From positions 109,081-173,080 of the forward strand of contig JAOZIE010000002.1 of NCBI GenBank assembly GCA_026014485.1: a stretch of DNA of 64,000 nucleotides, written 5' to 3'. A program made the translations under genes and the position numbers. Under the pieces are notes generated by a model that saw nothing but the letters and a program-made list of their open reading frames with translations, was not told the origin of the DNA and did no database searches. Positions 36,706 to 50,646 of this stretch are shown piece by piece. Positions within the stretch are counted from its first letter, which is position 1. The number at the start of each line of letters is the position of its first letter. The stretch comes from Candidatus Bathyarchaeota archaeon (GTDB taxonomy: Archaea > Thermoproteota > Bathyarchaeia > Bathyarchaeales > Bathycorpusculaceae).

Positions 36706-38013
36706 ATGGTTGATGTTTGGCTTCCCTACGGAAAAACAGACGTTTGCGTCAGAATTCCCGCGCGAAACTTCGTTGGCTCAATTGAACCTACAGAGCAAAA
36801 GGCTTGCCCAGACGCAAAAGCAGAAGTGGAACGTGCACTCAGAGAACCTGTACCCGCTGGATCCAAACGCCTAAACGAAATTGTTCAACCCCAAAGCAAA
36901 GTAGCCATAGTCATTGATGACGCAACCCGAAAATCTCCCAGCGGCATAATGCTTCTTCCTGTTCTTGACGAGCTAAATCAAGCTGGCGTGAAAGACGAGG
37001 CAGTTACGGTAATTTTCGGATGCGGAACACATCGCGCTGTTAAACCTGATGAAGCCCGCTTACTTTTGGGTGAAGCGTTTGAACGAGTGAAAGCGGTAAG
37101 CCACAACTGCAAAGCAGACGACCTCGTTTATGTGGGCACAACCAAACACGGCAACAAGGTCATGATTAACCGCATCTTCGCTGAAGCGGATGTCCGCATA
37201 GTCTTGGGTGATGTGGGCTTCCACTATTACGCTGGATACGGCGGCGGCAGAAAAAGCGTTTTACCCGCAGTCGCCGGCGAAGAAACTATCAAATGCAACC
37301 ATGCGTTGATGCTAAATGCCGCTGCACGCACAGGCGTATTGGAGGGTAACCCCGTGCATGAGGACATGGCGGAGGCTGCGCGGTTGGCAAAGGTGGATTT
37401 TGCTGTGAACGTTGTAACCAACAGCAAGTGCGAGGTGGTTGGGGCTTTCGCTGGGGACGTGGAGCAGGCGTTTTTGGAGGGCGTAACAGTTGTGGACGAC
37501 ATGTTTCGAGTGATGGTGGACCGCAGAGCCGACATCGTGGTGGTTAGCTGCGGGGGACGCCCAGCAGACCTCAACCTGTACCAAGCCTACAAAGCAGTTG
37601 ACGGCGCATTAGAGGTGGTTAAACGCGGCGGCGTCATAATTCTTGTGGCTGAATGCGCTGAAGGACACGGTAACCAGGTATTTTACGATTGGATGGTGCG
37701 GTTTGGCGATTTGAAGGCAGTGGAACGCGAAATTAAACGCAACTTCATGTTGGGTGGACACAAGGCGTATTACCTGCTAAAAGCGTTGCAGCACCACAAG
37801 ATAATTTTGGTTTCTTCACTGCCTGACTACTACGCGAGCAACATTTTCAGATTGAAGACCGCCCGCGCAGTAAACGACGCGTTGAACGATGCATTCACAA
37901 TCGCGGGAAAAGCCGCTCGGGTTTGGACCATCCCCCAGGGCAACTACACGTTGCCACAAGTAGGAGTTCCAAATGCAGAATCCAATGGCTCAGCAACGTC
38001 AGATAAAACGTAA
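36706..38013 (+). CDS. Nickel-dependent lactate racemase family (LarA-like)
   Basis: SKVAIVIDDATRKSPSGIMLLPVLDELNQAGVKDEAVTVIFGCGTHRAVKPDEARLLLG ... GDVGFHYYAGYGGGRKSVLPAVAGEETI. Confidence 0.88.
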   Translation: MVDVWLPYGKTDVCVRIPARNFVGSIEPTEQKACPDAKAEVERALREPVPAGSKRLNEIVQPQSKVAIVIDDATRKSPSGIMLLPVLDELNQAGVKDEAVTVIFGCGTHRAVKPDEARLLLGEAFERVKAVSHNCKADDLVYVGTTKHGNKVMINRIFAEADVRIVLGDVGFHYYAGYGGGRKSVLPAVAGEETIKCNHALMLNAAARTGVLEGNPVHEDMAEAARLAKVDFAVNVVTNSKCEVVGAFAGDVEQAFLEGVTVVDDMFRVMVDRRADIVVVSCGGRPADLNLYQAYKAVDGALEVVKRGGVIILVAECAEGHGNQVFYDWMVRFGDLKAVEREIKRNFMLGGHKAYYLLKALQHHKIILVSSLPDYYASNIFRLKTARAVNDALNDAFTIAGKAARVWTIPQGNYTLPQVGVPNAESNGSATSDKT

Positions 38014-38826: not shown

Positions 38827-39738
38827 ATGTCCGATTTAACCGCTAAAATTCAGAAGCTGAAAAAAGAAAAGAACGCCATTATACTTGCCCATAATTATCA
38901 GCGTGCAGAAATTCAGGATATAGCCGACTACGTGGGTGACAGCATTGAGCTCAGTCGTAAAGCTATGCATGAGGAAGACGCGAAAATCATCGTTTTCTGC
39001 GCGGTAGATTTCATGGCGCAATCTGCAGCTATCCTTAATCCGACAAAGAAGGTGCTTCTGCCGACCCTTGGCGCAAGATGTCCCATGGCGCAGATGCTCA
39101 CGACGGACGAAATTAAACGTGCCAAGAAGAAGTATCCGGGTGCACCCGTGGTTTTGTACGTGAACACCCTTGCGGAAGCCAAAGCGGAATGCGATGTGTG
39201 TTGCACCAGTGCTAACGTTGTTGAAGTCGTAAATTCGTTGAATTCTGAGACAGTGCTTTTTGGTCCTGACCGTAACCTTGCCAAGTATGCAGCGCATAAA
39301 ACAGGCAAAAAAGTCATTTCAATTCCTGAACATGGTTTCTGCCCCACGCATCTGTTGTTCCAGCCAGAAGATGTAACTGTGCAAAAACAGCAACACCCAA
39401 AAGCGGAGGTTATGGCCCATCCTGAGTGCAGTATGGAAATGCAGAAAATCGCGGATTTCATAGGCAGCACCAGCAAGATGTGCCGCTACGCCAAAGAAGC
39501 CGACGCAACAGAATTCATAGTGGGCACCGAAGATGGTATTCTACATCGGTTACGCAAGGAGAATCCAACGAAACGCTTTTACTTGGCGTACGAAGGCGCA
39601 GTTTGCCCAAACATGAAGCTCACCACGCTGGATAGACTCTATGCTTCGCTTAAAGAAGAAAAGCATATAGTGAAAGTTCCCAAGAACGCCTCTGCTAAAG
39701 CGAGACGTTCCCTTGAACGCATGTTCCTTGTGAACTAA
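38827..39738 (+). CDS. nadA: Quinolinate synthase
   Basis: AIILAHNYQRAEIQDIADYVGDS, CCTSANVVEVVNSL, AHPECSMEMQKIADFIGSTSKMCRYAKE, YEGAVCPNMKLTTLDRLY. ATG 38827 preferred to ORF-track 38701. Confidence 0.96.
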   Translation: MSDLTAKIQKLKKEKNAIILAHNYQRAEIQDIADYVGDSIELSRKAMHEEDAKIIVFCAVDFMAQSAAILNPTKKVLLPTLGARCPMAQMLTTDEIKRAKKKYPGAPVVLYVNTLAEAKAECDVCCTSANVVEVVNSLNSETVLFGPDRNLAKYAAHKTGKKVISIPEHGFCPTHLLFQPEDVTVQKQQHPKAEVMAHPECSMEMQKIADFIGSTSKMCRYAKEADATEFIVGTEDGILHRLRKENPTKRFYLAYEGAVCPNMKLTTLDRLYASLKEEKHIVKVPKNASAKARRSLERMFLVN

Positions 39739-40145
39739 ACCGTTACTACAACGGTTTTGAGGATTTTTACACCCCGCTTCGTGGCTAGCTCGTCGCTTAC
39801 GTGCCTAATTTCTGAGGCTTTGCCTTTTACAGCGATGGCTTCTAGGCAATCGCGTTCGCCGATGTGGATGTGCAGCGTGGAAGTCACGATGTCGGTGTGG
39901 TGATGCTGAACGTCAGTTAAGCCGCTTTCCAAGCCTCGAACGTCATGGTCGTAGACCATAAGGATTACTCCTGTGTGCTCAGTTTTAGGTTCTTGCTGAA
40001 GCCATTTCCGTTCGGAGACAAAAAGGCGAACCGCATCCTGAATGGCTTTGCTTCGGCTTTCGTACCCCATTTTCCCGATTATGGAATCAAAATCTTGAAG
40101 AAGCTCAGGTGGGAACGTTACGCCAATACGCGTAATTTTTGTCAT
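39735..40145 (-). CDS. nikR: Nickel-responsive regulator NikR
   Basis: MTKITRIGVTFPPELLQDFDSIIGKMGYESRSKAIQDAVRLF (RHH) ... GVILMVYDHDVRGLESGLTDVQHHHTDIVTSTLHIHIGERDCLEAIAVKGKASEI (Ni-site His/Cys). Confidence 0.93.
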   Translation of the reverse strand: MTKITRIGVTFPPELLQDFDSIIGKMGYESRSKAIQDAVRLFVSERKWLQQEPKTEHTGVILMVYDHDVRGLESGLTDVQHHHTDIVTSTLHIHIGERDCLEAIAVKGKASEIRHVSDELATKRGVKILKTVVVTV

Positions 40146-47150: not shown

Positions 47151-47852
47151 TTATTGGAAGTATTTGCAGTATCTGTTTTTGCAGAACTTTCTGTAATTGC
47201 CGTATTTCTGGAAGGCAGCGTAGTCTATTCTTGTTATTTGTTTTCGGGATTCAATGAATCGGTCAATTGATTCGAGTTGCTGATTAATCATCTTTGACTG
47301 GGTAGGCGTAATTTTTGAGATTACAGAAGCAAAATGTATAGCATAAAACGCATCCGTCTCAATCTCTATTTCAGGCGGGAAAAAGATATTGAGCAGTTGC
47401 AACGTAAAGTCTAATCCAGAGTATTCAGCATTAACAGTGTTGTTTTCTTCTTTTACTTTCACTGGAAGAAGCATATGGCCAACCAACCACGTGGGGTGGT
47501 CAGTTATGGGGCAATTTTTAGTTATTGCATAGCTAGATGCAAGGGCGTCTTCAGCCATATTCCAATGTGCCACGCTGCAAAAATGGCTGTATATGTCGCC
47601 TTTAGTTATTACCTCGTCCTCTGAATCATTTTTTGAACAAACGCAGAAATCTCTTAACCTGTGAAATGCAGTCTCACCACAGGATTCACCAACAATATCG
47701 AGCATTTGTTTGAAATCAAAACAGTCGCCATTACTGTGCGTGTGGTAATGCTGAATTATTTCTTTTTCTGCCGCCAAACTGATTGGGCATTGGCAACTAA
47801 GCAGCACTTTTATCAGCAGTTTTGCAGCTTCGCTTTCGATTTCCAACAGCAT
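47151..47852 (-). CDS. Hypothetical protein, divergent from the ECF-S-like gene
   Basis: 233-aa frame, Cys-rich; no family recognised. Confidence 0.5.
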   Translation of the reverse strand: MLLEIESEAAKLLIKVLLSCQCPISLAAEKEIIQHYHTHSNGDCFDFKQMLDIVGESCGETAFHRLRDFCVCSKNDSEDEVITKGDIYSHFCSVAHWNMAEDALASSYAITKNCPITDHPTWLVGHMLLPVKVKEENNTVNAEYSGLDFTLQLLNIFFPPEIEIETDAFYAIHFASVISKITPTQSKMINQQLESIDRFIESRKQITRIDYAAFQKYGNYRKFCKNRYCKYFQ

Positions 47853-47897
47853 ACTTAGCCCTTCTGTATCATCATTTTTCCCGTAAACACATATATA

Positions 47898-47927
47898 GGT
47901 GTTACTTTCCTAAAAAATAGTAATACC
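47898..47927. promoter_or_regulatory. Putative NikR-type operator
   Basis: GGTGTTACT-N12-AGTAATACC (core GTGTTAC-N14-GTAATAC) directly upstream of 47928 and in the divergent intergenic region. Confidence 0.6.
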
Positions 47928-48578
47928 GTGGGCGGTATGATGAAAAAGACATCTCACAAACACCTCTTCCACCTCAGGCCTTTTGATTTGGCTCTAATCG
48001 GAATCATGTCGGCAACAAATTTTGTAATATCGCTATCTGTTGCTCCCGCGTTAAAGGCAATCATACCTCACGTTTTCTTGGGTGCTTTTCTGATGGTTCC
48101 CTTGGACATTTTTCTTGCCTACCTAGTTTGGGCTGTTACACACAAAAACATTTTCACGTTATATTTTCTCATCTATGGCCTACTCACTGCACCAACAACA
48201 ATCTGGGGAAACATGCCCGGTTTATTCAAGCCCTTTCTGGGGATAGCAATAGGCTTATCACTGGACCTTTTAACTTTGAAATTTAATCCTCAACATAAGA
48301 GCGCCCGCTATCTAATGGGCACAGTTTTCCCTGTAGTTTATTGGAGCTGGACTGCCTTTGTCTGGATGATAGCAGGTCTGCCGATTGTGCAATTATTCCA
48401 AATGATGATGCAAACCACACCCATATTAAACTCGATAATCCCCTCCGGATTCATAGCAACCTTTGCCGCCCTAGCCTTCCTAACAATCCCCTCATCAGTT
48501 ATCGCAGTAAATCTTGCGGTTTCACTATCAAAAAGGGTGAAAAAAATTGTTCCCGTCCAAGTACCGGAGGAGCCATAA
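47928..48578 (+). CDS. Integral membrane protein, ECF transporter S-component-like
   Basis: LRPFDLALIGIMSATNFVISLSVAPALKAIIPHVFLGAFLMVPLDIFLAYLVWAVTHKNIFTLYFLIYGLLTAP...; starts at GTG 47928 or ATG 47937/47940. Confidence 0.65.
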   Translation: MGGMMKKTSHKHLFHLRPFDLALIGIMSATNFVISLSVAPALKAIIPHVFLGAFLMVPLDIFLAYLVWAVTHKNIFTLYFLIYGLLTAPTTIWGNMPGLFKPFLGIAIGLSLDLLTLKFNPQHKSARYLMGTVFPVVYWSWTAFVWMIAGLPIVQLFQMMMQTTPILNSIIPSGFIATFAALAFLTIPSSVIAVNLAVSLSKRVKKIVPVQVPEEP

Positions 48579-48790
48579 CGAAAATTTCCTGCATCAAAAC
48601 CGCCTCTCTGTATCCAGAAGAATCAAAGTAACTCAGTTGAACAAAACAGTTTATGCCGACGTTACAGCTGCTTCCCGCCTTTCTATCTGTTTTTCCGTCT
48701 TTTTATGAACGCTGAAGCTGCGCATCTGGCTTTGGTTCAGTGGATGTTGCTATAAGTTGATTATTGCGTAGAGGCAGCAACACTAAAATA

Positions 48791-48818
48791 GTGCTACCTT
48801 TTTTAAGAACAGTAACAC
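48791..48818. promoter_or_regulatory. Putative NikR-type operator upstream of [FeFe]-hydrogenase
   Basis: GTGCTAC-N14-GTAACAC, 16 nt upstream of ATG 48835; same architecture and spacing as the 47899-47926 site. Confidence 0.6.
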
Positions 48819-48834
48819 CTCGTGGTGAAGGGAC

Positions 48835-50646
48835 ATGCAAGTAACCATTAATAAAAAAATAGTTCAAATACCCGACAACACCTCCATTTTGGAAGCTATT
48901 GAATCTGTTCATGAAACCGTTCTGTCACCAGATTTAGGCGATGCCAAAGATTGGGTACGTAACCCGTCTTGCCCACTGATGGGGTTGGCTGAAGTAGATG
49001 GAAAACTTGTTTCGCTTCCGGCTTTGAAGAAACGTCTAGCAATGGATGGGATGTCAATACTAACTCATTCTCCAAAAGCAGAAGAAGCCGTTGCTGAGCG
49101 TGCTCATTTGCTTACAGATCATCATGAATGCTATTTCATGAATGAATGGCAAAAAAAGATAGCAATTGAGGGCGTGAATGCGGGTTTTATTACGCAAGAA
49201 GAATATGAACAGTTTTCTTTTCCTGAGCGTGGAGCTAAACCATCGATTGTCCACGACCCCAACAGGTGCATCCGATGCCAAGCTTGTGTGGAAACCTGCA
49301 GACTGCAAGGTGTAGAAGCGTTAAAGTTTGATGAAGAAACCGGCGTAATTGTTGATGAAGAACGCTGTGTCAGATGCGGCCAATGCATCCTTCATTGCCC
49401 CGTCGGCGCAATAACAAACCATAACCCATTAGCTGAATTTTTAAACTGTGAAGAATGCGCTTTCACTACCCCACCCGGAGCTATGCGAGAACATGATAAC
49501 ACCTTCAAAGTTTGGAATTTGCTCCAAGACCCCAACGCTTATTGTGTTGCAGAATTTGCTCCTGCTGTCCGCGCGTCTCTGGGCGAAGAGTTCGACATTC
49601 CCGCAGGGGAATTAGTTACCGAAAAAATCTATGCAGCCCTTCGCCGATTAGGCTTCAAAAAAATATGGGATACCAACTTCGCCGCTGACCTCACCATCAT
49701 GGAGGAAGGCACAGAATTCATCGACCGTTTCGCCAATGGCGGCGTCCTGCCACTTTTCACGTCCTGTTGCCCCGCTTGGGTCAGGTTTGCCGAAAGGTTC
49801 TACCCTGAATTACTGCCGCACATTTCTTCTGCGAAAAGTCCTCAACAGATGTTTGGAGCAGTAGCCAAAACCTTCGGAGCTAAGTCCCTAAACGTGACGC
49901 CCCAATCAATGAGGGTAACATCTATTATGCCCTGTACCTCAAAGAAGACCGAAGCTAAACGTCCAGAAATGAACAGCGCCTCCACATACTGGAAGAAACA
50001 AGACGGCGGGACCAGCGACAAATCCTTCCAAGATGTCGATGTGGTTCTTACTTCAAGAGAATTAGCGCGTCTCCTCAAACTGTCGGGTATTGACCTGCGT
50101 CAGATGCCTAAAGAAAACGCTGATCCGCTTTTGGGCAGTTACACGGGCGCAGCACCTATCTTTGGTAGGACAGGCGGCGTTATGGAAGCGGCACTTCGAA
50201 CAGCCATCACTTTGCTTTCAGGAAAACCCCCTGCCAATCTAGAGTTCAATAACTTAGCAAGCTTGGACGGAATAAAACGGGGCGAAATTCTGATAGGCGG
50301 CAAAGTTGTAAAAGTGGCGGTTGCTCATGGCTTGGACAACATTCGAAAGGTTTGTGAGTCGGTTCTTTTAGGCGGCGAGTTTTCTGATTATCACTTCATT
50401 GAGTTCATGGCGTGCCCCGGCGGCTGTATTGGAGGCGGCGGACAACCTTTGCCAACAAATGTTTGCACTAGAAAAGCGCGCACTACGGGATTAAATCGTG
50501 ATGACAGCGAAGTCTGCGATTTGCGTATGAGCCACGAGAACCCTGAGATAAAAGCGTTATATGAAGAATTTCTGGAAAAACCCCTTAGCCACACAGCGCA
50601 TCAGCTTTTACACACCAGGTACACTGCGTATTCTCTTCGTGACTAA
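48835..50646 (+). CDS. [FeFe]-hydrogenase (monomeric HydA-like) with two [4Fe-4S] ferredoxin motifs
   Basis: H-cluster motifs TSCCPAW, MPCTSKKTEAKRPE, FMACPGGCIGGGGQP; CIRCQACVETCRLQG and CVRCGQCILHCPVG; C-terminal small-subunit-like tail. Confidence 0.9.
   Translation: MQVTINKKIVQIPDNTSILEAIESVHETVLSPDLGDAKDWVRNPSCPLMGLAEVDGKLVSLPALKKRLAMDGMSILTHSPKAEEAVAERAHLLTDHHECYFMNEWQKKIAIEGVNAGFITQEEYEQFSFPERGAKPSIVHDPNRCIRCQACVETCRLQGVEALKFDEETGVIVDEERCVRCGQCILHCPVGAITNHNPLAEFLNCEECAFTTPPGAMREHDNTFKVWNLLQDPNAYCVAEFAPAVRASLGEEFDIPAGELVTEKIYAALRRLGFKKIWDTNFAADLTIMEEGTEFIDRFANGGVLPLFTSCCPAWVRFAERFYPELLPHISSAKSPQQMFGAVAKTFGAKSLNVTPQSMRVTSIMPCTSKKTEAKRPEMNSASTYWKKQDGGTSDKSFQDVDVVLTSRELARLLKLSGIDLRQMPKENADPLLGSYTGAAPIFGRTGGVMEAALRTAITLLSGKPPANLEFNNLASLDGIKRGEILIGGKVVKVAVAHGLDNIRKVCESVLLGGEFSDYHFIEFMACPGGCIGGGGQPLPTNVCTRKARTTGLNRDDSEVCDLRMSHENPEIKALYEEFLEKPLSHTAHQLLHTRYTAYSLRD

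Follow-up and report, generated by a model that had tools for sequence, protein, structure and literature searches.

Two 28-bp palindromes in the window, the 64,000-nucleotide stretch of Candidatus Bathyarchaeota DNA that was analysed, are probably operators of a NikR-type nickel repressor, from which a [FeFe]-hydrogenase gene and a membrane-protein gene would be derepressed at low nickel in a switch of hydrogenase isozymes. An earlier note on this DNA had proposed much the same, and the sequence comparisons reported here largely support its model.

Operator 1 (GTGTTAC-N14-GTAATAC; 47899 to 47926, plus strand) lies 5' of the membrane-protein gene, between it and a divergently oriented gene, and operator 2 (GTGCTAC-N14-GTAACAC; 48791 to 48818, plus strand) lies 16 nt before the hydrogenase ATG at 48835. 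Both are exact matches to GTGYTAC-N14-GTAAYAC and no other exact match was found in the window, in agreement with the earlier description of position, spacing and distance to the hydrogenase start. The inverted 7-bp arms (GTGTTAC/GTAACAC) and the spacer of 13 or 14 nt place the sites in the GTGTTAC class, correctly given in the note as a known class of NikR operator; the consensus equals the delta-proteobacterial NikR signal GTGTTAC-[N13/14]-GTAACAC described by Rodionov et al. in 2004 (PMC545781). The sites were scored with a 28-position matrix built from other loci only, the window sites and their orthologues in a second species of the genus (genome G005) having been left out to avoid circularity. 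The two best positions in the window were 47899 with 34.1 bits and 48791 with 32.9 bits, followed by a third-best position with 4.9 bits, while no position of 22 bits or more was found in 20 Mb of first-order Markov random sequence. A one-mismatch match at 37767 was rejected as an operator because it lies inside a coding ORF and scored 4.9 bits. When the pattern was compared with its reversed control, exact sites numbered 20 versus 1 in seven genomes of the same genus and 51 versus 9 in 101 genomes of the same order. With the spacer allowed to vary from 8 to 20, N14 accounted for 21 of the 22 strand matches. Once two to three mismatches were allowed, no enrichment over the controls was seen. 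Both window operators are real, far beyond chance.

The position of the operators relative to the promoter is fixed. Across the genus the heptamer just 5' of the operator conforms to TAWAWWA, G and C being absent from -4 and -3, and the last base of this TATA-box-like element adjoins the first base of the operator. The element is TATATAG at operator 1 (47892 to 47898, plus strand), where it is also kept in G005, and TAAAATA at operator 2 (48784 to 48790, plus strand), where it was recognized from the sequence and from identity with G005; each abuts its operator directly. In Archaea, the transcription start lies approximately 25 bp 3' of the TATA box. At that distance the start is predicted to fall inside the operator, where a bound protein would block initiation, so that the abutting arrangement predicts repression by this means. 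Where transporter promoters carry tandem operators, the spacing of the pair is 35-37 bp, and in most cases a TATA-like element separates the two sites.

The multi-helix, transporter-like membrane protein is encoded at 47937 to 48578 (plus strand) if translation begins at the likelier ATG, the listed start being a GTG at 47928. The statement that operator 1 abuts the start of this gene holds for the GTG, which follows the operator after 1 nt, and is weakened by the likelier start at 47937. The label "ECF-S-like" given to the protein was not confirmed. It had no match in Pfam or NCBIfam, in profile-profile comparison with site-linked small membrane proteins resembling ECF S-components, or in a profile search of the PDB, and a single-sequence AlphaFold model, all-helical and of low confidence, gave nothing usable. 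The orthologue, 65% identical, was found in G005 only. A role as a metal-transport component is possible, the ECF S-component identity being unproven. The divergent gene on the other side (47151 to 47852, minus strand) shares the intergenic region containing operator 1 and encodes a 233-aa protein of no known family, without a match in Pfam, NCBIfam or structural comparison. Its orthologue in G005 is 52% identical and also adjoins the operator; the gene may be co-regulated via operator 1.

Among the 101 genomes searched, the full-length hydrogenase was found only in the window's own genome (G000) and in G005, where it is 78% identical. Gene order across the divergent, membrane-protein and hydrogenase genes is unchanged in G005 and both operators are kept, which bears out the conservation on which the earlier reading depended. 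The G005 counterpart of operator 1 is GTGTTACtttttttaaaaaaaGTAACAC. In an ungapped comparison anchored at the hydrogenase ATG, operator 2 is identical at 23 of 28 positions, in unchanged register to the ATG and with all five mismatches in the spacer, and its TATA element region (-60 to -45) is identical at 15 of 16; the distal stretches between -160 and -81 matched at 6 of 40 and 9 of 40 positions, which is chance identity. In genome G006, the hydrogenase appears to be in decay: only a remnant comprising aa 386-601 is left, directly behind a FecBCD-type transporter cluster (L064:10366-14160, G006:C2). No convincing upstream site was found in the available flanks of 35 loci with hydrogenase orthologues outside the genus, including those of Altiarchaeales, Archaeoglobaceae and a Zixiibacteriota-labelled contig. 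The closest named relative of the hydrogenase, with 64% identity, is encoded on a short Zixiibacteriota-labelled contig (JAAYTW010000345.1, L028) that may be misbinned archaeal DNA or the result of a transfer.

Pattern searches with zero to one mismatch of the window's own genome (2.37 Mb) yielded the two window sites, C2:226258, two tandem operator pairs (C9:276149/276186 and C9:103894/103930) and the coding match at 37767. The motif is thus rare and is found 5' of metal-uptake genes, and of nikR in relatives; to the extent that sequence can decide, the earlier reading withstood the checks it had named for itself. Targets in the genus include a Peripla_BP_2, FecCD and ABC ATPase cluster with a methyltransferase-like gene; a second Peripla_BP_2/FecCD/ABC cluster, in which the tandem pair lies between divergent ATPase and binding-protein genes and which adjoins hyp genes in five genomes (hypF, hypC and hypD in G000); a CooC-like ATPase with another FecBCD-type cluster; NicO in G003; and a small membrane protein with a methyltransferase in G002. 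The names "CooC-like" and "methyltransferase-like" come from reading the sequences, Pfam assigning the CooC-like protein to the CbiA-type P-loop ATPases. Farther in the order, sites were found 5' of CbiM, ZnuA-family binding proteins and ABC ATPases. At L022:8895-9390 (G000:C9), tandem operators precede what looks like a fusion, now degenerate, between a CooC-like ATPase and a binding protein; in relatives of this locus the CooC-like gene is still full-length. In G005 (L092:2724-4989) and G006 (L086:5304-7647), the operator is located 5' of nrdJ, encoding the B12-dependent class II ribonucleotide reductase, followed by cobA, encoding cobalamin adenosyltransferase. The motif thus marks a metal regulon, one that appears to centre on nickel uptake or nickel enzymes, as indicated by the transporters beside hypFCD, NicO, CbiM and the CooC-like ATPase; the exception is nrdJ-cobA, which is out of place in a regulon for nickel alone.

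The predicted regulator is encoded within the window at 39735 to 40145 (minus strand), where a nikR gene had been noted before. The product, designated NikR1, scored over cut-off for Pfam NikR_C and NCBIfam PRK01002, and has the architecture of a ribbon-helix-helix (RHH) domain plus NikR_C; in alignment to solved NikR all four nickel ligands are kept (H81, H92, H94 and C100, corresponding to H76, H87, H89 and C95 of E. coli). A second, more divergent NikR is encoded at C2:36714 of the same genome. In relatives, NikR1-like genes are preceded by operators and so are other NikR-like genes; the sites stand upstream of nikR genes in G007, G082, G099, G068, G035 and G014. Autoregulation of the window's nikR was rejected, no site with fewer than four mismatches being found near it. 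Two nikR genes were present in 14 of 20 genomes with exact sites versus 13 of 41 without (Fisher p 0.006), a comparison among related genomes that is supportive only. These results are consistent with a NikR, whether NikR1 or the second protein, as the likely binding protein and with nickel as the likely signal.

The sites could instead belong to a cobalt- or cobalamin-sensing NikR paralogue, or to another metalloregulator, with the FecBCD-type transporters importing cobalt or corrinoids. The operator in front of nrdJ-cobA in two genomes points in this direction, as do the overlap between the FecBCD and BtuCDF families, a CobN-like gene near one cluster and the two NikR paralogues in the genome. 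We nevertheless consider this explanation unlikely, given the transporter locus beside hyp genes in five genomes, the presence of the site at the CooC-like ATPase and NicO genes, the conserved NikR ligands and a nickel-free hydrogenase among the targets. Furthermore, it is only nickel limitation that raises NikR1 and a CobN1 in Methanothermobacter marburgensis (PMC12350162).

The hydrogenase (48835 to 50646, plus strand) is a monomeric group A [FeFe]-hydrogenase of 603 aa identified with Pfam and NCBIfam models, TIGR02512 scoring over cut-off. The L1-L3 H-cluster motifs and Fe-S clusters are present, with TSCCPAW at residues 309-315, MPCTSKKTEA at 365-374, FMACPGGCIGGGGQP at 524-538 and two CxxCxxCxxxC clusters, and HydA relatives in the PDB were matched with E values down to 5e-120. 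Nothing over cut-off was found with the models for HydE, HydF and HydG in G000, G005 and G006, each search having brought one known control genome over the cut-off. Incompleteness is an unlikely reason, since the maturases are missing from two independent genomes, one of which is a single 2.7-Mb contig. Intact [FeFe]-hydrogenase motifs stand alongside no detectable HydE, HydF or HydG. Several [NiFe]-hydrogenases, including Vhu/Mvh-like enzymes, are encoded in the genome; the [NiFe] large-subunit loci that were read had no operator, either exact or with one mismatch.

Since no maturases were found, a conventional role in H2 metabolism is not secured, and the hydrogenase might serve redox balancing or sensing in place of an isozyme switch. 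Alternatively, NikR might bind the sites and activate, as Helicobacter pylori NikR does for some genes. Against activation is the operator between TATA box and start codon, a repressor position common to the uptake systems, and against another role are the intact H-cluster motifs; together these possibilities are judged improbable, slightly more so than a cobalt sensor. That the palindromes are a chance or common repeat devoid of regulatory meaning, which would agree with the lack of enrichment at two to three mismatches, is refuted by the held-out scores, the reversed-pattern controls, the fixed N14 and TATA register, the gene association and the cross-species conservation, and deserves practically no weight.

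The preferred explanation is accordingly that of nickel-dependent repression by NikR. With sufficient nickel, nickel-loaded NikR would occupy the operator immediately 3' of the TATA box, where transcription is expected to begin, and would keep RNA synthesis from starting at the [FeFe]-hydrogenase gene and, independently, at the membrane-protein gene. Under nickel scarcity NikR would be released, and both genes would be turned on along with the nickel-uptake ABC transporters bearing the operator. Hydrogen metabolism would then move from the several [NiFe]-hydrogenases to the nickel-free enzyme. The two window operators are near-identical, and the presence of such operators at nickel-uptake genes elsewhere in the genome indicates that this enzyme is probably on when nickel runs out. 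Counting against the explanation are the second NikR, the lack of a site at the promoter of the window's nikR, the operator before nrdJ-cobA, the orthologues outside the genus with no site in the available flanks, and the missing maturases. In the earlier proposal of repression by nickel-bound NikR and a switch from [NiFe]- to [FeFe]-hydrogenase, the sites, the regulon and the coexisting [NiFe]-hydrogenases held up, while binding by NikR, nickel as the ligand, repression and the isozyme switch itself are what we infer from them. A stronger proposition, which stands somewhat short of an even chance, is that the choice between [NiFe]- and [FeFe]-hydrogenases is under the direct control of a nickel sensor in this archaeon, the [FeFe] enzyme being a nickel-scarcity isozyme apparently matured without HydE, HydF and HydG and tied into the regulon through operators abutting the TATA box.

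If true, the nickel switch would explain why a [FeFe] enzyme is kept in a genome rich in [NiFe]-hydrogenases. The results also provide a testable regulon, with a promoter geometry that predicts mechanism, for a lineage known from assembled genomes, and show that the GTGTTAC-class NikR operator described in delta-proteobacteria also extends through an archaeal order. With its maturases missing, the hydrogenase offers a test case for archaeal H-cluster assembly. Archaeal [FeFe]-hydrogenases have been recognized only recently, and no paper linking archaeal NikR to [FeFe]-hydrogenase was found in the literature.

Known systems share parts of this arrangement. H. pylori NikR with NiuBDE also pairs a member of the NikR family with a FecBCD-type nickel transporter as target, although the operators there are poorly symmetric and the main output is urease, not the choice of hydrogenase. 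The archaeal NikR resembles that of E. coli in the nickel-ligand residues, the RHH plus NikR_C architecture and an inverted repeat of 27-28 bp, whereas the arm sequence and promoter architecture differ from those of the enterobacterial operator GTATGAT-N13/14-ATCATAC (PMC545781). In the archaeon M. marburgensis, nickel limitation causes NikR1 and a CobN1 to rise and [NiFe]-hydrogenases to fall while Hmd takes over, such that a nickel-free H2 enzyme replaces [NiFe]-hydrogenases at low nickel as is proposed here; that enzyme is the [Fe]-hydrogenase Hmd, not a [FeFe]-hydrogenase, and the available part of the report describes no operator (PMC12350162). The closest likeness is to the delta-proteobacterial NikR regulon, in which the consensus is the same and a nickel-free hydrogenase is predicted to be NikR-repressed besides nickel transporters; for Desulfovibrio desulfuricans, the Fe-only hydrogenase hydAB was predicted in 2004 to be repressed by nickel (PMC545781). 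In contrast to the delta-proteobacteria, the archaeal spacer is almost always N14, the operator is fixed against the TATA box, the sites at transporter promoters are often tandem and 35-37 bp apart, the transporters are mainly FecBCD-type, and the hydrogenase is a monomeric group A enzyme where D. desulfuricans has periplasmic HydAB. The system described here is thus the archaeal counterpart of a known prediction and not a new kind.
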